A stretch of 32,397 bases of DNA from a virus. The first letter of the stretch is position 1; the number at the start of each line of letters is the position of its first letter. The stretch spans positions 1 to 32,397 of the IMG/VR virus record IMGVR_UViG_3300043446_000210; one strand, written 5' to 3'. The notes beneath the pieces were generated by a model. The model was not told the DNA's origin. It ran no database searches and was given only the letters and a program-made list of their open reading frames with translations. Both the position numbers and the translations under genes were made by a program. This document shows positions 1,706 through 20,030 of this stretch, one piece after another.

Positions 1706-2194
1706 TTACTTGAGGAATCGAAGTTTGTAGATTGTGCTATCTACCAGTGCAGCCATCTCGTCTGTGATGTTCTGCAATTCGGTATCTTGTGGCAATTGTT
1801 GGCGGGCAACATTGATGTATTGGCTCAAACCTATTAGGTATTCAAGCGCAGGTTCTGGTTCTGCGTATGTCAGCCCGTAACCTTCAATCAAGCCGTACTT
1901 GCCTTGATACGCTTCAACGTAATCGTCAACCAGATCGCCAATTTCTGTGTAATACGCTTCAAGCGCCTTGTGTTCAGAATATGAACGGCTTTGCAAATGC
2001 AGGATGTGCGCGTTGGTTACTGAATGAAGTAGGCAAAGCACAAAGGCTTGCACTGTGTATTCGTCACTGGTCATGGCTTCCCCCTTGAATCCCGCTGCGT
2101 GTGCTGCTTGGCCCACTTGGATTGCTTTCTGCTTGGTCTGGAACGGCCCCTTGCTGCCCCAATACCATCCGTCTGGTTTCTTTACTACTGGCAT
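1706..2194 (-). CDS. Conserved phage protein, DUF5856-like
   Basis: A 162-residue protein read from the ATG at 2194. The first 40 residues (KPDGWYWGSKGPF, then an AIQVGQAAHAAGFK helix) look like a small basic phage protein that elsewhere seems to occur alone. The rest, from residue 41 (MTSDEYTVQAF), is helical and resembles DUF5856 proteins as I remember them. A second good start, the ATG at 2074, has GGGGGA just upstream and sits four codons before the stop of the overlapping gene 2064-2285. The shorter 122-residue form may therefore also be made. An open frame continues upstream to 2281, but those codons lie inside the neighbouring gene. Function unknown. Confidence 0.6.
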   Translation of the reverse strand: MPVVKKPDGWYWGSKGPFQTKQKAIQVGQAAHAAGFKGEAMTSDEYTVQAFVLCLLHSVTNAHILHLQSRSYSEHKALEAYYTEIGDLVDDYVEAYQGKYGLIEGYGLTYAEPEPALEYLIGLSQYINVARQQLPQDTELQNITDEMAALVDSTIYKLRFLK

Positions 2195-3554: not shown

Positions 3555-4190
3555 TTATTCCTCTAGTTTGATGATTAAAGATTCCACCTCTGCCAAGAAT
3601 TTCTCGACTTCGGCTTTCATTTCCGCAATAAGGTCTTCATCGCGTTCTGTCCGCACAATCAGCAATTGATTGCGCTTGGGCAGTCTTGGGTCATAGGAAA
3701 CAAAATCGCACCACTTGCGGCCTGTTACCCATAGTTGACATTGGATTTGCTTGTAATACTCAGTTGGCACTTTGTTGTCAAACAGGTATTGCAAATGCGT
3801 TGTGGTGTTTGGGCATTTGATTTCAACCAAGCCATCGTCACCAACCAAACGGTCAGGCGATACGCCAAGCCATTTCACATCTTCACAAGGCCAAAAGCCT
3901 GTTTTTTCAGCAAATACGCCCTTGGCGGCTTCGTACTCAATGGCGGCAAATTGCTCTTGCTCAACGCCCCATTCCATAGCCGCACTGCTAAATGATTCAG
4001 CAGCCGTACCTGTTAAACGTTCTGCAACCAAACGCACTTTGTATTTGTAGCGCCCAATGGCTTCTGCGTTGCCTTTGCCTTTGCTCATTACTTCGGCAAT
4101 GTTGCTGGCAGTAACGTGACCAAGGCGAATCTGCTTCCACAGGTCTGTCCCTTGTTCAACTGTGCGTGGGTCAAATATTGTGTCTGTCAT
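3555..4190 (-). CDS. YqaJ-type recombination exonuclease
   Basis: A 211-residue PD-(D/E)XK nuclease of the YqaJ/lambda-exonuclease type. It shows an early R-x-G-x-V-T-A-S segment (residues 22-29), the catalytic S-P-D at 111-113, E-I-K at 123-125 and the QIQCQL helix at 148-153. It would resect double-stranded DNA ends to expose strands for the annealing protein encoded three genes upstream. The ATG at 4190 is preferred over an upstream in-frame ATG at 4277, because those extra codons lie within the small membrane gene 4192-4341 and look non-native. The start follows that gene's stop after one base, so coupling probably replaces a strong ribosome site. Confidence 0.9.
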   Translation of the reverse strand: MTDTIFDPRTVEQGTDLWKQIRLGHVTASNIAEVMSKGKGNAEAIGRYKYKVRLVAERLTGTAAESFSSAAMEWGVEQEQFAAIEYEAAKGVFAEKTGFWPCEDVKWLGVSPDRLVGDDGLVEIKCPNTTTHLQYLFDNKVPTEYYKQIQCQLWVTGRKWCDFVSYDPRLPKRNQLLIVRTERDEDLIAEMKAEVEKFLAEVESLIIKLEE

Positions 4191-5574: not shown

Positions 5575-5937
5575 ATGCTTAATCTTTTTTTGCCTTACCC
5601 ACCTAGTATTAATACCTACTGGAACTTTAACGGGTCTAGGCGCTTTCTAACGGCAAAGGCCAATCAATTTAAGGCCAAGGTGTTTGAAGCGTTTGTGCTT
5701 TCTGAACATAAAGGCTTTGAGGCTCATAGGGTGAGCCTGACTGTGTACCTGTACCCACCAGACAAACGAGTGCGTGACATTGACAACATAGCCAAACCAT
5801 TGCTTGATGCGCTTACACAGGCTGGTGTGTTCAATGATGATAGCCAAGTGGACCGCTTGCTGATTGTGCGAAAAGAGCAACAAAAAGGTGGGGGTTGTCG
5901 GGTTGTAGTTGATGTGCCTTTGGAATCTTGTGTATAA
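5575..5937 (+). CDS. rusA: RusA-like Holliday junction resolvase
   Basis: A 120-residue RusA-family protein. It has the characteristic start LPYPPSINTYW and the acidic metal-binding residues D68 and D70 in VRDIDN, followed by K74, LLDAL and the D88-D89 pair in FNDDSQV. RusA cuts four-way junctions made during recombination and clears branches before packaging. It is the first rightward gene. There is no visible Shine-Dalgarno sequence in the short leader, so translation may be weak or leaderless. Its stop codon lies inside the -10 box of the next promoter. Confidence 0.93.
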   Translation: MLNLFLPYPPSINTYWNFNGSRRFLTAKANQFKAKVFEAFVLSEHKGFEAHRVSLTVYLYPPDKRVRDIDNIAKPLLDALTQAGVFNDDSQVDRLLIVRKEQQKGGGCRVVVDVPLESCV

Positions 5938-5938
5938 T
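5909..5938 (+). promoter_or_regulatory. Sigma70-like promoter for small RNA
   Basis: TTGATG (5909-5914), an 18-bp spacer and a perfect TATAAT (5933-5938), with TG just before the -10. It overlaps the 3' end of the resolvase gene, and the predicted start (about 5945) falls right at the foot of hairpin 1. Confidence 0.7.
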
Positions 5939-5944
5939 TTTTTG

Positions 5945-6052
5945 CAGAAGGTTTAGGTGTCGTATGTACTAGATACGAATACATCTAAGCCTTCAACGGC
6001 TGACCCCTGAAGACTTGTGCTAGTACCGCAGGTTTTCAGGGGTTTTCTTTTT
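5945..6052 (+). ncRNA. Candidate two-hairpin kissing-loop RNA
   Basis: Hairpin 1 is 14 bp (5947-5960 with 5981-5994, two G-U), then a 3-base bulge AAT (5978-5980) and 5 bp (5961-5965 with 5973-5977), closed by a 7-base loop GTACTAG (5966-5972). After a 9-base linker, hairpin 2 is an unbroken 16 bp (6004-6019 with 6027-6042, including several G-U) with the 7-base loop CTAGTAC (6020-6026). The loops are perfect reverse complements, so they can pair with each other (kissing) or between molecules. A T-rich run ends the unit. It is either a free RNA of about 105 nt or a leader that controls the gene at 6062. I cannot match it to a known RNA family. Confidence 0.7.
6004..6052 (+). terminator. Rho-independent terminator (hairpin 2)
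   Basis: A 16-bp stem beginning CCCCTGAA and ending TTCAGGGG, followed by TTTTCTTTTT (6043-6052). It ends any transcript from the promoter at 5909-5938 and any read-through from rusA. The next gene's GGAG ribosome site begins one base later. Confidence 0.85.
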
Positions 6053-6061
6053 GGAGCATTT

Positions 6062-6244
6062 ATGTCCATCTTTTTACCAAAAGAACATGAAACAGAAGTT
6101 GTAGGTCATGGCGATGGCTTTATTTCAATTAACCAAAAAACAGCAGAAGGTGATGAACTTGTAATTTGGCTTTCTGTACATCAATTTGAAACCATTTTTA
6201 ATCACGAAAAACACATCATTCGTGAAGCATTGGGGGCAGAATGA
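6062..6244 (+). CDS. Hypothetical 60-residue protein
   Basis: A 60-residue acidic protein, unrecognised. It starts MSIFLPKEHETEVVGHGDG at an ATG with GGAG five bases upstream; an in-frame ATG at 6017 falls inside the terminator hairpin and is rejected. It reads as a small beta-rich fold with a helical end (FNHEKHIIREAL). Its stop overlaps the start of the replication gene by four bases. If the upstream RNA is an attenuator, this gene and the operon behind it are its targets. Confidence 0.65.
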   Translation: MSIFLPKEHETEVVGHGDGFISINQKTAEGDELVIWLSVHQFETIFNHEKHIIREALGAE

Positions 6245-7050
6245 AACGCCCATCATTTCAATTTTACCCAAGCGATTGGTTACGTGATACGGCTTTACGC
6301 TCATGCTCAACAGGTGCGCGTGGGTTGTGGATGGATATGATTTGCTTTATGCACGAAGGAACACCTTACGGACATTTAAAGGTTGGTGATAAGGTTATCC
6401 TTCCATCAAACCTTGCACGAATGGTTGGGGATAACCAAGAGGTTGTTGCAGATTGGCTTTTAGAACTTGAACAGGCAGGCGTTTACGAAACAACTGATGA
6501 AGGTGTAATTTATTCAAAACGCATGATTCGTGACGAAAACCTACGCCAGATAAGGGCTGCGGGTGGTTCTAAGGGTGGAAATCCTGCATTGATGGATAAG
6601 GGTAAGGTTAACCTTGAGGTTAAGCAAAAAACAACCCCTTCATCTTCATCTTCATCTTCTAAAAGTAATAAAGCAACTAAAGTTGCAGCGCCTGAAGGCG
6701 TTGATGTTGTTGTTTGGAATGATTTTGTTGCATTACGCAAAGCAAAGAAAGCCGCCATAACAAACACGGCTATTGCTGGTTTACAACGTGAAGCAGATAA
6801 AGCCAACTTGAGCCTTGAACAAGTGTTATCCATTTGTTGTGAACGTGGATGGGCTGGATTTAAAGCAGATTGGCTTGAAAACAAACAAACCTTTGTTAAT
6901 AAGGCTGACGTTGCCCATGTGACCACACCACCACCGCCAAACCAAGATGCGGCCTTACGCAAGATTGAAGCAGATCGCAAAAATGCCGTTCCACCTTCAC
7001 TTGAAGTATTAGCAAAGATGGCAGAATTACGCAAAGGGGTGCAAGCATGA
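6241..7050 (+). CDS. Replication initiator-like protein
   Basis: A 269-residue protein. The N-terminus (FQFYPSDWLRDTALRSCSTGARGLWMDMICFMHE) is the conserved start of the DUF1376/YdaU-like phage proteins, a winged-helix region (about 1-110) related in layout to replication protein O. A low-complexity linker with seven serines (about 135-147) leads to a helical C-terminal domain (WNDFVALRKAKKAAITNTAIAGLQREADKANLSLEQVL), typical of phage replication proteins that contact the origin or helicase loader. No helicase or polymerase gene is in the window, so host machinery may be recruited. It overlaps both neighbours by four bases. Confidence 0.75.
   Translation: MKRPSFQFYPSDWLRDTALRSCSTGARGLWMDMICFMHEGTPYGHLKVGDKVILPSNLARMVGDNQEVVADWLLELEQAGVYETTDEGVIYSKRMIRDENLRQIRAAGGSKGGNPALMDKGKVNLEVKQKTTPSSSSSSSKSNKATKVAAPEGVDVVVWNDFVALRKAKKAAITNTAIAGLQREADKANLSLEQVLSICCERGWAGFKADWLENKQTFVNKADVAHVTTPPPPNQDAALRKIEADRKNAVPPSLEVLAKMAELRKGVQA
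6393..6613. other. Possible iteron cluster (origin candidate)
   Basis: Three copies of GGTTAWCC lie inside the replication gene: GGTTATCC (6393-6400), GGATAACC (6429-6436) and GGTTAACC (6606-6613), the last within a 12-bp palindrome (6604-6615). Phage origins often lie within the initiator gene, as in lambda O. Evidence is weak. Confidence 0.25.
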
Positions 7051-7901
7051 AAAATACATTTGAAATTACAGATCAGACTTGTATTAGTTTTTCTGGTGGT
7101 CGCACATCGGCATATATGCTTTGGAATGTTTTGAAAGCAAACAACGGAAAATTGCCAAAAGATGCCAAAGTGCTTTTTTGCAACACAGGCAAAGAAGATG
7201 ATGCAACTCTAGATTTTGTTAACGAATGTTCAGTCCGTTGGAATGTTGAAATTACATGGCTTGAATTTGCGTTAGAAAACGAAGAAAGCGCATTTAAAGT
7301 TGTAGATTACAAAACAGCATCAAGAAATGGCAAGCCATTTGAAGACGTAATTAAGCGTTATCAGCCTTATTTGCCAAACGGTAGGGCTAGGTATTGCTCA
7401 AGTCAAATGAAGACCAGAACGATGCACAGATACTTGAACTCTATTGGTTGGGAAGATTGGGACACATTTATCGGAATACGAGCAGACGAGCCAAGGCGTG
7501 TTGTTAAATTTCGTGCTAACCCACATCCAGAGACAAAGCACGAAACAATTTGCCTTCCGCTTGCTACTTTGGGGGTTTCCTCAAAAGAAGTCGGTAAGTT
7601 CTGGACTGAACAAGATTTTGACCTTGGTTTGCCAAACATGAATGGCAAAACAATGCACGGAAACTGTGATTTGTGTATGTTGAAGCCAAAAGCACAAATC
7701 TTAAGCCTGATTCAAGAAAAGCCTGAACGTGCAATTTGGTGGATACAACAAGAGGCTGAAGCAGCCAAAAGATGCACAGGAGATGGCAAGTTTTTTGCTA
7801 TTGACAGACCAAGTTACGCTCAAATGTATAAATATGCTGCTGAACAGGTAGATATGTTTGACAAAAACGAAGAAGCAATTTCTTGTTTTTGCGGGGACTG
7901 A
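7047..7901 (+). CDS. PAPS reductase-like (PP-loop) protein
   Basis: A 284-residue member of the phosphoadenosine-phosphosulfate reductase family. The PP-loop SGGRTS is at 16-21 and CNTGKED at 45-51. There is a Cys in RYCSSQMK and a later GNCDLCMLKPK pair that in relatives may bind metal or an iron-sulfur cluster; the C-terminus ends CFCGD. Family members activate substrates with ATP and handle sulfur. In phages the role is unsettled: nucleic-acid modification, such as DndC-like sulfur insertion, or sulfur supply. No other dnd gene is present. Its start overlaps the stop of the replication gene (ATGA). Confidence 0.85.
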   Translation: MKNTFEITDQTCISFSGGRTSAYMLWNVLKANNGKLPKDAKVLFCNTGKEDDATLDFVNECSVRWNVEITWLEFALENEESAFKVVDYKTASRNGKPFEDVIKRYQPYLPNGRARYCSSQMKTRTMHRYLNSIGWEDWDTFIGIRADEPRRVVKFRANPHPETKHETICLPLATLGVSSKEVGKFWTEQDFDLGLPNMNGKTMHGNCDLCMLKPKAQILSLIQEKPERAIWWIQQEAEAAKRCTGDGKFFAIDRPSYAQMYKYAAEQVDMFDKNEEAISCFCGD

Positions 7902-14225: not shown

Positions 14226-15404
14226 TTAACTATTTGACAAACTTCCATATCCAAAAATTGTTGATGAAGAATTTGTAAATGAAAAAGTCGCCACACTAGA
14301 CATAGTAAATGCCGATGAAGATAGAAATGTTGCAGCAGTCAAGTTTCCAGCAGTTAAAGTGTGAGAGTAACTGCCAGTTGATTCCCATCCAGAAGATGAA
14401 GTAATTGTTGTTGTTGCAAAGTTTAATGTTGCATTGTATGAATTGAAAACAACAACTGCGTTATATGGATAAGAATTATTGCCAGAAAAAGTTACTGGAG
14501 TCATCGTTCCACTTGACCCAAATGCAGTAGTTGAATTGCTGACGTTTGTAGTAGTTACCCAATATGTTGCCATTGCATAACCACTGTAGCCACTAAAATT
14601 AATATCTATATACATTCCAGAAAAAGGTAGTGGCGCTGAATAATATAAAGCACCTTGATTGTTAGTGCCAACATAAGTAAATGGCCCACCCATTGATGTG
14701 ATAGAAGTATTAAACGAATTCATGCTTGGGTCACCAACTACAACAACCCATAATTGTTGTCCACTGCCTGAAGTTCCAGAAATACCAGTAATAGATATAT
14801 TGCTACCAGGACTTGTATTTTCAGTCCAAGTTAAAGTTTGAGGAATTCCACCAGTAGATGAAATTGTGATCGTCTTGGTTGTGTTATTTGCTGTCAAAGT
14901 AACATTAGAACCAGCAGCAAAATTTAATGTTTGGTTTGGATAATCAGGAGTGATTAAGGTGGTGCCAACTTGTACATTACCAAAATAATTAAACTCGCCA
15001 GCAGGACCTGTAGGGCCAGTAGCACCTGTAGGTCCAGCAACTGTAGATGCCGCGCCTGTTGGCCCTGTAGGACCGTTACTACCATTTACTCCTGTAGGAC
15101 CAGTAGCGCCAACAGAACCACCAGCACCAGTTGGACCCGTAGGACCGTTAGTTCCATTTGCACCCGTTGGGCCAACAGCACCAGTTGGACCCGTAGGACC
15201 AGTAGCGCCGTTTGCTCCGTTAGCGCCTGTAGGCCCTGTAGGGCCAGCAGAACCTGTAGGGCCAACAAGCGTTGCCCATGAACCATCGCCTTTCAATACT
15301 GTAGACGCAGATGGTGTACCTGTCGCATTAAGTCCAGTTACATTTAATTTCCCAGATGTGTCTACATTAGGCGCAAAAGCACCTAGATTTCTTGGCAATG
15401 TCAT
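14226..15404 (-). CDS. Collagen-like tail fibre protein
   Basis: A 392-residue protein. The N-terminus ([18 protein letters not shown], then a [11 protein letters not shown] motif typical of fibre ends) is followed by a collagen-like Gly-Pro-Thr/Gly-x-y stretch (about 48-136). A long Ser/Thr/Asn-rich beta region follows ([38 protein letters not shown] and on). Collagen repeats form triple-helical rods, so this is likely a trimeric spike or side fibre with a C-terminal receptor-binding head. It is the last structural gene before the glycosyltransferase. Confidence 0.78.
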
Positions 15405-15698: not shown

Positions 15699-18600
15699 TT
15701 AAGCGATTACCGCTAGTTTACGAAGTGTACCGCCAGCATCACGAATTGTGATGTAGCCTGTGATTGGAGCATCAGCGTTCGCTGTAAGCGTACCAAATTG
15801 AACAACTCCTGTTCCCTTTGGTGTCAGGGCTAGGTCTATGTTTGTGTCTGTGCCAGCAACGCTAAACGCAGGAGCAACACCTGTGGCTGAACCTTTTACT
15901 GTTGCATAATTTGCCGCAGCTGTTCCATTATCAATTACTGCAAATTGTGCGCCACTAGCCGTGTAGAAAAACACATAACCAGAACCTTTTGAGCGCAATT
16001 GCAACGATATATTTGAATCGCTACCTTGAGCAGAAATACCAGGTAATCCACCAGTAGCCGCCCCAGTAACCTGTACGTAGTTCACAGCAGCAGATGTATG
16101 AGCTATAGCAAATTGTGGTGACCCTGTATTGCCAGATGTTTGCGGGTTTGTTGCAGCCGAGTGAAAAAATGCAGTACCTGTTCCACCCCAAATAAAATAT
16201 GGCGAAGATATTGTTCCAAATATAGGAGCGCCAAAGTTACTTTGTGGCGGTATTAAACCAAAAGCCGATGTAGCATTTGTTGGAACGCCATTTGAAGTAT
16301 TTTTGGCGCGTAAATGCAAAATTGGCGTAGTGTCTACAGAAATGTCTGAGAAGCCGCCTAATGTTCTTATAGCTGTACCAGCCCCCACAGTAGCATAAGC
16401 CGCAGCACCAGAGCCGCCACCGCCGCTGAACGAAACTGTTGGTTGTTCTACGTAGCCTGAGCCTGCGTTGGTGATGGTTGCCACAGAACTTGAAACAGAA
16501 TAAGTGAGCGTAAAAGTAGCCCCAGAGCCTGTACCACCAGTAACAGATGCGGGGTTTGTCGGAATGGCTGACATATTGCCGCCAAGAGAAACCGTTACAC
16601 CCGTGATAACACCAGCGCTGACTGAACTAACAGTAAGTTGACCAGCCGTTCCTGTTGAGCCAGAAATTGTCAGTACATCATTAACCGTGTAACCCGTACC
16701 ACCAGAAACAATGGTTGCCCCTGCCAAGCCCATCAGAGGAGAGGCAGTGGCCTGTACACCACCAGCAGTCGTTGGGGCAGTAATAGCAACAGATGGAATA
16801 GTCGTATATCCTGAACCCGCCGCAGTTCTTGTCAAAGCAGTAACAGTACCACCGTTACTAATGTTCACACCGCTAGAACCTGCTGCTAGGTCAATGGCTC
16901 CTGTGCCTTTGCTTTGGAATACTTGGCTAATGTTTGTGTCTGTTCCTGCCACACTAAAAACAGGAGATGCTCCTGCTGCTGCGCCAGTAACAGTTCCATA
17001 ATTTACAGCAGAAGATGTGTGATTTACTCGAAACTGCCCATTACTTGAAGCGCCGTTTGTAGCAAAGATTAAAGGACTTGTTCCTTTTGAAACCATTGCT
17101 AAAACAATATTGCTATCTGAACCTTGAGAAGAAATTACAGGCCAGTTTGTTGTGCTAGACCCAGTAACCTGTACGTAGTTCACAGCAGAGGCTGTGTGAG
17201 CTACTTGAAGTTGTGTTGAGCCTAAGTTTGTTCTAAACCTAAATGAACCTGCACCTTTTGTATATTGGTCAAAACCTACGTCAGTTGCAGAACCAAAAGC
17301 AGTTAAATATGGCGTAGTTGTTCCGCCAGTTGCTTTGATATATCCTGTTTGAGCAACGCCTCCATCTTCAACTCGGAACGATTCTCCACCTGGTGTATAA
17401 AAAGAAACAGCAGAGCCAACAGATTTAACAATAGGAATAGACCCCACAGTAGCATAAGCAGCAGCACCAGAGCCACCACCACCTGAGAAACTTACTGTTG
17501 GTTGTTCTACATAGCCACTACCTGCGTTGGTGATAGAGGATGCTCCTGCTTGTGTGGATAAACCCCAAGTCAAGTTAAATGTAGCGCCAGAACCTGTACC
17601 ACCCGTTACAGAAACAGGGTTAGAAGGTGCAACAGAGTATGTTTGGTTGTTAATACTAACGCCAGTAATGACACCAGCAGAAACAGCCGTTACGGTAATT
17701 ACCGCTTGAGATGTAAAAGTGCCGCCTGCAACAGTTAATGTGTCATTAACTGCATAGCCCGTTCCACCGCCGTTAATAGCAATAGATGCAACACCAATAC
17801 CCCATGTTGCAGTTGCTTGTACGCCCCCTGCTGTTGTTGGGGCAGCAATAGCTACAGTTGGAGATGATGTATATCCTGTTCCACCACCTGTACGAGTCAA
17901 CGCAGTAACAGTACCACCGTTACTAATGTTCACACCGCTAGAACCTGCTGCTAGGTCAATGGCTCCTGTGCCTTTGCTTTGGAATACTTGGCTGATGTTG
18001 GTGTCGGAGCCGTTTACGCCAAGAGTAACGCCGTTACCAGTAATAGCACCTGTTAGTTGAAAACGGTTTACAACGCTACCTGTATGCGTAACGTCAAGAT
18101 GACGAGAGTTTGAGTTGGCAGAGTTTGTGTAAAGGGAAAGAGTGCCAGTTGATTTTGCTGATAATGCCAAACCAATGCTTGCATCCGAACCAGCAGAAAC
18201 AACAGATGGCGCGTTGTTAGTGATGTTGCCTGTTACTTGAACATAGTTGACTGCGGAGGCTGTGTGAGTTGCTACTAATTGAGTCTGCGCACCAGCGTTG
18301 GTTCCTAAAATAATTGATCCTGTGCCTCTGCTTCTTAAGCCTAAGTTAACTGCAGAACTTGCTCCGTTTGCACTAACAGAAACAGTACCAAAAGCAGTTG
18401 AAGTACCTGATGCTTCAACCCAGTTAATTGCGCTTGCAGTCGTAACAACACGCAATCCTTCAGCACCAGCAGCACCACCCAAAGATGTCTGACCAGTAGC
18501 AGTCAACGTAGTAAACGTACCAGCAGCAGGGGTTGTTCCACCTATTACTGTGTTGTCAATCGTGCCGCCAGTTTGTGCAAGCGTTGTTCCGTTATATGTC

Positions 18601-20030
18601 AATAAAGGAACACCACCTAATACACCTGCATTGTTATATTGGATTTGGGTGTTTGTGCCGCCAATTGCAGGGGTTGCACCAGTTGGACCAGTTGGGCCAA
18701 GTTGGGTATACATCACTTGCGTTGCAGTAAATACAACAGAAGGAACTCTTGGGCTAACAGGAGTTGTGCCAGCAGCAATAGTTTCAAGCGTTACTTGAGT
18801 GCTTGTTGTTGACCAAACCAATTCAATAAAGTCACCAGCAGCCAATGACAAAACAAAATTGACTGTGCCAATTACATTGCCATGCACACCGCCATGACTA
18901 CTAATAACGCTAAACTTACTGTCAGTATCAGCAAGATCACCCGCGCTGCCTGAATCGTTCTTGCGTAACCAAACGTTAGCATCATGGATTTGCGTATCAG
19001 CGTTAGTAAACTGAATTGAGAATGTCAGGCTATAAACGCCAGCATTTGCAAACGTCACACGGCTACCAGAAACAACGCTAATACCATTGTTGGATGCGTC
19101 ATAACTGTTAAGCGTAATTGAATATGGCGTATTTGCAGAAGCAGCAGTTTGGGTTGTTGTATCCCAAAAAGAACCCCAATAACCTAAAGCGCCGCCAGCG
19201 CCTGTGCTACCCGTAGGTCCTGTGGGACCAGTAATTGATGCGCCTGTGGGTCCTGTGGGTCCTGCAACAGTAGAAGCAGCACCAGTTGGACCAGTTGGAC
19301 CAGTTGGTCCTGTAGGAGCGATGTTGATTGTGTTGTAGGCAATAGTCTCAACAATATCGCCAGCGATCAAAGGAGCCGCCAAGGTGATTGATGTGCCATT
19401 CGTAGCAACATAATCAGCGCCATTTAACAATACGCCGTTTAAATAAACTTCAAGAAACCCAACGATGTAAGAAACTGTAAAAACAGTTTGACCAGCCGTT
19501 GAAGTAAAACTTGTTCGCGTATAGGTAGCGTTTGGAGCAGGAGCGCCTGTTGGTCCTGTCGCACCTGTTGGTCCAGTAAGACCTTGAGCGCCAGTTGGAC
19601 CTGTGGGACCAGTTGGGCCGGCAACAGTTGATGCAGCACCCGTTGGACCAGTTGCTCCTGTAGGTCCAGTTGGGCCAGCAACAGTTGATGGTGCGCCTGT
19701 TGCACCTGTTGGGCCTGTTGGACCGACAGCACCAGTGGGGCCTGTGGGACCAGCAACCGTTGAATCAGCACCAGTGGGGCCAGTAGGACCAGTTGCACCA
19801 GTTGGGCCAGTAATACTTAAACCTTGCGAACCTGTAGGGCCTGTCGGACCCGTAGGACCTGTCGGACCCGTAGGCCCAAACATTCCGTGGTCAATGTTGA
19901 TTTCTTGCCGTGGAGCTGGCGTAACTTCAACAAGGATGTTTTGTTGACCAGTTACGTTTACATCAGTCCCATTTACTGTTACAGCAACTTCATTGACAGC
20001 GCCCTTGGTGATTGTCAGTTGTGTTGCCAT
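15699..20030 (-). CDS. Giant collagen-like tail fibre
   Basis: A 1443-residue modular fibre. An N-terminal anchor (1-50) is followed by collagen repeats (52-163), a phage fibre beta domain (about 165-236, [25 protein letters not shown]), more collagen (239-280) and a jelly-roll-like region that reads like C1q/TNF proteins (about 281-430). A long array follows, in which a module of the type [10 protein letters not shown]...GSDSNISL...SKGTG recurs about eight times, with two copies of a Gly-rich insert ([16 protein letters not shown] to AAAYATVG). The end, VQFGTL then [19 protein letters not shown], looks like a fibre tip. It is probably trimeric and host-binding. It starts one base after the stop of the gene upstream. 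Confidence 0.82.
16837..16928. repeat. 92-bp perfect direct repeat, copy 1
   Basis: Identical to 17902-17993, the starts lying 1065 bp (355 codons) apart, so both copies are read in the same frame. They encode the [11 protein letters not shown]-type segment of the fibre. Exact identity at DNA level points to a recent duplication or gene conversion within the gene. Confidence 0.85.
17902..17993. repeat. 92-bp perfect direct repeat, copy 2
   Basis: Second copy of the repeat at 16837-16928. Beyond its borders the flanks match only in part, so identity stops abruptly. It could allow loss or gain of the 355-codon module by recombination. Confidence 0.85.
19191..19316 (-). repeat. Collagen-coding repeats, block 2
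   Basis: Tandem GPT/GxT triplets (residues 239-280 of the giant fibre), read from 9- and 18-base units. They separate the fibre beta domain from the C1q-like domain. Confidence 0.8.
19542..19877 (-). repeat. Collagen-coding repeats, block 1
   Basis: Tandem Gly-x-y triplets (residues 52-163 of the giant fibre), mostly GPT, with [12 protein letters not shown] units repeated every few triplets. The reverse strand gives open frames rich in Pro and Val that are shadows. Confidence 0.85.

Follow-up and report, generated by a model that had tools for sequence, protein, structure and literature searches.

The window, that is, the whole stretch of DNA that we analyzed, is the 32.4-kb (32,397 nt) virus record IMGVR_UViG_3300043446_000210, and the RNA described here sits at about positions 5947 to 6052. 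Upstream of it lies a co-directional gene for a RusA-like Holliday junction resolvase (5575 to 5937, plus strand), the stop codon of which falls inside the −10 box of the RNA (TATAAT, 5933 to 5938). The first gene downstream is a small open reading frame (ORF) of 60 amino acids with no Pfam or PHROG family (6062 to 6244, plus strand), which overlaps the gene for a replication initiator with an O-like C-terminal region (6241 to 7050, plus strand; phrog_678). Elsewhere in the window, a PAPS-reductase-like gene (7047 to 7901, plus strand; phrog_424) is a possible auxiliary metabolic gene, while two large ORFs on the minus strand (14226 to 15404 and 15699 to 20030) contain collagen-like GPTGPTG repeats and probably encode tail fibers. 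With a capsid protein that shares 55% identity with its counterpart in Methylophilaceae phage P19250A, the virus might infect a freshwater betaproteobacterium, which is a guess only. No integrase was detected in 18 records carrying the window's RNA.

The RNA is preceded by a sigma-70-like promoter (5909 to 5938, plus strand), in which the −35 element TTGATG (5909 to 5914) stands 18 nt from the −10 box; it was the only such promoter found between 5400 and 6400. Hairpin 1 (5947 to 5994, plus strand, as are all parts of the RNA) is built on the 14-bp helix P1a, whose 5′ strand (5947 to 5960) includes the conserved GGUUUA and whose 3′ strand (5981 to 5994) includes the conserved UAAGCC. The 5-bp helix P1b (5961 to 5965 with 5973 to 5977) is separated from P1a by a 3-nt bulge, AAT (5978 to 5980), and ends in the loop L1, GUACUAG (5966 to 5972). 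A 9-nt linker (5995 to 6003) with the conserved GGCUGA, of which GGC is retained in divergent members, leads to hairpin 2 (6004 to 6042), in which the arms of the 16-bp helix P2 (6004 to 6019 and 6027 to 6042) enclose the loop L2, CUAGUAC (6020 to 6026). The hairpin is followed by a U tract (6043 to 6052) and, immediately 3′ of it, by the Shine-Dalgarno sequence GGAG (6053 to 6056).

The first-pass annotation had placed the TATAAT box, both hairpins, the 7-nt loops and the T-run at these coordinates, all of which we confirmed in the sequence. Its predicted discrete RNA of about 105 nt is also supported, and both the 5′ and the 3′ ends of this RNA would lie within hairpins. The minimum free energy of 5940 to 6056 was −52.5 kcal/mol (z = −7.5), and none of 200 shuffles reached so low a value. 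Hairpin 2, one of two terminator-like sites between 5400 and 6400, is G+C-rich and runs directly into the U tract; both elements are conserved in the homologue alignment, in keeping with the earlier proposal that it is an intrinsic terminator. Among 7-nt loops on stems of at least 5 bp within 100 nt of each other, L1 and L2 were the sole perfectly complementary pair in the window, while shuffled windows contained a mean of 0.02 such pairs.

We searched for homologues with a pattern in which the base of hairpin 1 and the linker were fixed and the loops were left free. It hit 56 contigs from viruses and none from the genomes of about 85,000 prokaryote species, and the 44 distinct sequences it returned share the same fold, save three cut by the contig end. 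Further patterns that freed hairpin 1 or the linker added homologues, some of them divergent, in which C-G replaces U-G at the base of the stem, the linker differs or P1 is shorter. Tallied over all pattern searches, homologues occur in roughly 90 viral contigs. One of them is carried by the phage record MW202710.1, with the loops GGTTCAG/CTGAACC. Six loci (L352, L356, L359, L360, L363 and L367) form a divergent subfamily with a shorter P1, the loops GTACCAG/CTGGTAC and downstream genes starting MEIT or MELT. Pattern matches without the fold (L200, L205, L217-220, L223, L224, L354, L357, L362, L365 and L368) were discarded as chance. Rfam (release 15) gave no match at the gathering score and nothing convincing at a relaxed threshold (best E values, 0.39 and 3.5). 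A covariance model found a single weak, partial match in 399 genomes of one order, and we found the RNA neither in 10 further genomes nor in the plasmids searched. Literature searches, which scarcely covered subscription journals, returned no report of this RNA.

Most carriers have one copy per record. The record IMGVR_UViG_3300022748_000017 (75,987 bases; L111 and L201) looked like a two-copy phage and proved to hold two related phages, about 74% identical. The only true two-copy phage was L204, where copies near 1257 to 1352 and 3585 to 3682 on the minus strand lie 2.3 kb apart in one operon, ahead of a helicase-methyltransferase and a replication initiator. Their loop pairs, GGACTAG/CTAGTCC and GTACGAG/CTCGTAC, are different, and each is matched to itself.

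The pairing of L1 with L2 was strongly conserved across the family. In 38 aligned sequences, 97.7% of the cells paired, and all five measures beat all 500 shuffles and every slid control. A structure scan that tolerated loops with as few as five of seven pairs recovered 51 distinct members, in which the kissing helix was paired in 357 of 357 cells, exclusively by Watson-Crick pairs; its nine imperfect matches all lay in unrelated sequence, outside the family. A later scan gave 53 members, all with perfect loop pairs. The 51 members use 14 different loop pairs of the form G-NNNN-AG/CU-NNNN-C, and a tree of the RNA built without the loops, which rests on few columns and leaves many forks unresolved, implies no fewer than 23 joint changes of loop type. 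No pair of columns anywhere in the element, promoter and start codon region included, covaried more strongly than loop pair 5. The earlier claim that GTACTAG and CTAGTAC, as exact reverse complements, form a kissing pair is therefore upheld by covariation, and the compensatory changes in both loops, which it had named as the evidence to look for, were present in every homologue.

Each hairpin is unremarkable on its own, and the locus could be read as an ordinary terminator beside an unrelated hairpin, with loops complementary by chance. Covariation refutes this reading, to which we give practically no credence: perfect pairs in 51 of 51 members, with 14 types and the repeated joint changes, stand against the 0.02 expected per shuffled window. 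Thus, the kissing helix is real. Changes in the loop pairs are about as frequent as those in P1b, the apical stem, so it is pairing that is selected and not a particular sequence; with such a rate, hypervariable loops whose specificity is under diversifying selection need not be invoked. The 14 + 5 bp architecture with the 3-nt bulge was kept in 46 of 51 members. Two elements were invariant, GGYUUA/UAAGCC at the base of P1 and GGC in the linker, a conservation partly imposed by the several search patterns that required them.

G-U pairs were absent from the kissing cells, as compared to 7 to 9% in the stems (97 G-U stem cells on the modelled strand; Fisher p = 6e-6 with variable cells taken as independent, a value that relatedness weakens). 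Such strict Watson-Crick pairing, next to a replication initiator gene, is also what one might expect of an element acting as DNA, such as an origin, protein-binding inverted repeats or a cruciform. However, the stems tolerate G-U on the modelled strand, and the U tract, the −10 box and the Shine-Dalgarno sequence are all oriented for that strand, which makes a DNA-level element highly improbable. As judged by sequence comparison, selection at the RNA level on the fold and the kissing helix is demonstrated.

The homologues share a common cassette: a sigma-70-like −10 box, the RNA from about +1, the intrinsic terminator, a Shine-Dalgarno sequence and a start codon, which places the RNA between a promoter and a co-directional gene. 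The −10-like box lies about 10 nt ahead of hairpin 1 at a near-fixed distance, and the aligned upstream regions show a weak TTG-like −35 peak. In 48 of 51 members, the next start codon follows 110 to 120 nt after hairpin 1, with the Shine-Dalgarno sequence at the end of the U tract; this spacing could partly reflect the compactness of phage genomes. A co-directional gene ends 6 to 35 nt upstream of the RNA in about 40 of 51 members, so transcription arriving from upstream would also meet the terminator. Most downstream genes encode replication initiators, which belong to several unrelated families and differ in their N-terminal families; the others encode a helicase-methyltransferase, HNH nucleases, RdgC or small ORFs. 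An HNH ORF directly follows the RNA in L119, L127 and L148, and in L015, from the same phage group as L119, an HNH gene lies between the RNA and the replication gene, as if HNH genes had been inserted behind the Shine-Dalgarno sequence of the RNA.

Complementary loops on the 7-nt scale are familiar from phi29 packaging RNA (pRNA) and from ColE1 RNA I/II, where they are intermolecular by design, pRNA serving packaging and RNA I acting as an antisense RNA. The suggestion in the first-pass annotation that the window's RNA might be a packaging RNA found no support, since the RNA always precedes replication-module genes and is not near packaging genes. The RNA lies just before the replication genes and ends in a transcription stop signal, and it therefore probably controls whether they are switched on. 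We tentatively propose, with a confidence a little short of even, that this phage-encoded RNA of about 105 nt is a leader and acts as a transcriptional gate for the replication operon, the loop pairing coupling the 5′ hairpin to the terminator.

According to this proposal, hairpin 1 would fold first as RNA polymerase leaves the promoter, and L2 would emerge ahead of the 3′ arm of the terminator and pair with L1. A taut ring would then arise from the kissing rod, the arm hinged at the bulge and the 9-nt linker. In such a ring, the pairing of the loops would affect how the base of the terminator closes, and vice versa, and loop pairing would thereby tune how often transcription terminates to leave a short, stable RNA and how often it reads through into the replication genes. 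Transcription, kissing in cis and control of termination are what we infer. Covariation alone would fit pairing in cis or in trans, and the effect on termination may go in either direction.

The kissing is most likely intramolecular. In a coarse rigid-helix geometric model, which is crude, the intramolecular ring closes only with the 3-nt bulge acting as a hinge, and the linker is then nearly fully stretched. This outcome agrees with the conservation of the bulge and of the stem lengths, and it suggests that loop pairing and closing of the terminator's base pull against each other. Loops that are complementary between the two hairpins would also permit L1 of one molecule to pair with L2 of another, giving dimers or rings like those of phi29 pRNA or of GOLLD and ROOL, phage-associated structured RNAs whose covarying kissing loops proved intermolecular (PMC12286853). 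GOLLD and ROOL, however, are hundreds of nucleotides long and form multimeric cages, with other positions and folds. The window's RNA occurs as a single copy per phage before replication genes, the coarse model would permit cis pairing and would account for the invariant bulge, and the two copies of L204 each match themselves; homo-oligomerization is accordingly a reading that we consider very unlikely.

The purine riboswitch offers a precedent for a single RNA in which loop-loop contacts hold two hairpins together, and it can control a terminator. In contrast to it, the window's RNA lacks a three-way junction and a ligand core, has a full 7-bp kissing helix and uses one of its hairpins as the terminator. 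An all-against-all analysis of column covariation revealed no conserved competing or antiterminator pairing and no third complementary site that covaries. The earlier suggestion that the RNA may be an attenuator for 6062 to 7050 is supported, although a classical two-state attenuator is to be rejected, because no mutually exclusive antiterminator pairing appears to covary. Nearest in logic is the immunity system of P4, in which an RNA derived from the leader of the replication operon decides, through RNA-RNA pairing, whether transcription of the operon ends prematurely (CI RNA/seqA/seqC; PMC4825925). P4 is a temperate satellite that uses a processed antisense segment and two target sites, whereas the phages studied here have no detected integrase and a single compact RNA whose hairpin loops supply both partners. 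Pairing is confined to these loops, with no separate antisense segment and flanking target sites, and by the tests made the window's RNA does not belong to the P4 type.

A further reading, which we regard as unlikely, is a self-sensing gate: the short terminated RNA would build up with the number of phage genomes and exchange loops with those of nascent leaders by kissing in trans, setting termination before the replication initiator. If true, this would be RNA copy-number control from the same strand, with the loop pair as an identity tag.

The main rival to the leader proposal is a free-standing small RNA that acts in trans on phage or host RNA or by binding a protein, with the kissing lock making it compact and nuclease resistant and the downstream gene expressed independently. 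Its own promoter and terminator and the enclosure of both ends in hairpins would suit such an RNA, and the invariant P1a base and linker GGC may resemble a binding site. Yet the RNA always stands directly ahead of a start codon with a Shine-Dalgarno sequence, in co-directional strings of genes, and its loops are explained without any external partner. We hold a trans-acting role to be possible but rather unlikely. The first-pass annotation had named a regulator or a sponge among the possible roles, and either may compete with the leader reading.

In related phages, another structured terminator RNA takes the same slot and is present in at least 120 contigs (e.g., L011:2707-2810, L226:4015-4118 and L351:4331-4433, all on the plus strand), and it has no Rfam match. 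In its first pseudoknot (7 bp), the loop UUGGCGG of the 5′ hairpin pairs with CCGCCAA inside the terminator hairpin; this pairing is invariant in the main alignment and covaries in divergent members (UUGGUGG/CCACCAA, UGGGGAG/CUCCCCA and UUGGUCG/CGACCAA). The second pseudoknot joins the linker to the apical loop by five pairs, all covarying and 100% paired. Two of 25 records with the window's RNA also carry the second RNA, and none of 21 in the reverse comparison, so that the two are almost mutually exclusive, which favors the leader proposal. In L351 (record G005), the window's RNA (1719 to 1825, minus strand) and the second RNA stand in opposite operons, each before a gene. Because the second RNA takes the same slot with its own pairing between 5′ hairpin and terminator, the two different folds have one layout in common: a promoter, then a 5′ hairpin that pairs with the terminator hairpin, followed by a U tract, a Shine-Dalgarno sequence and a replication-module gene. 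A possible third structured element, GGCTAGG..TGGACTAATTACCCA..CCTGCCG, was seen in this slot in two loci, L025 and L031, where it precedes the replication gene by about 100 nt; it follows TATAAT in L031, and no terminator was seen with it.

The presence of an RNA of this slot in both opposite operons of G005 would also suit a put-like antiterminator, in which the two hairpins, while still nascent, would bind RNA polymerase and render it resistant to terminators, including that of the RNA itself. The put RNA of phage HK022, of about 70 nt, has two stem-loops near early promoters and acts in cis on transcription (PMC9378689), and the two long hairpins of the window's RNA are similarly placed. 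A further mark of put RNA is its contact with the zinc-binding domain of β′ in RNA polymerase. However, put is followed by a terminator without containing one, whereas stem II here is the terminator itself, directly followed by the U tract. Loop-loop pairing is unmentioned in the description of put in PMC9378689, and the window's RNA has neither a sequence match to put nor an Rfam match. HK022 put is thus the nearest phage cis-acting two-hairpin RNA, of which the window's RNA is not a member by the tests made, and a put-like function seems improbable.

Together, these data define an RNA family that is real and, to judge from Rfam and the papers searched, new, and they confirm that its loop kisses the terminator; gating of the replication operon is its most likely function, in which our confidence is a little short of even. 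The finding adds a family with strong kissing-loop covariation in which one partner is an intrinsic terminator, located before the replication genes of many environmental phages. It raises the testable question of whether termination can be set by tertiary pairing between the loop of a terminator and a hairpin that precedes it, for which the 14 natural loop pairs are ready-made material. Because a second, unrelated pseudoknotted RNA takes the same slot, our results suggest that control by RNA forms a widespread, previously unrecognized layer in phages in which no integrase was detected.
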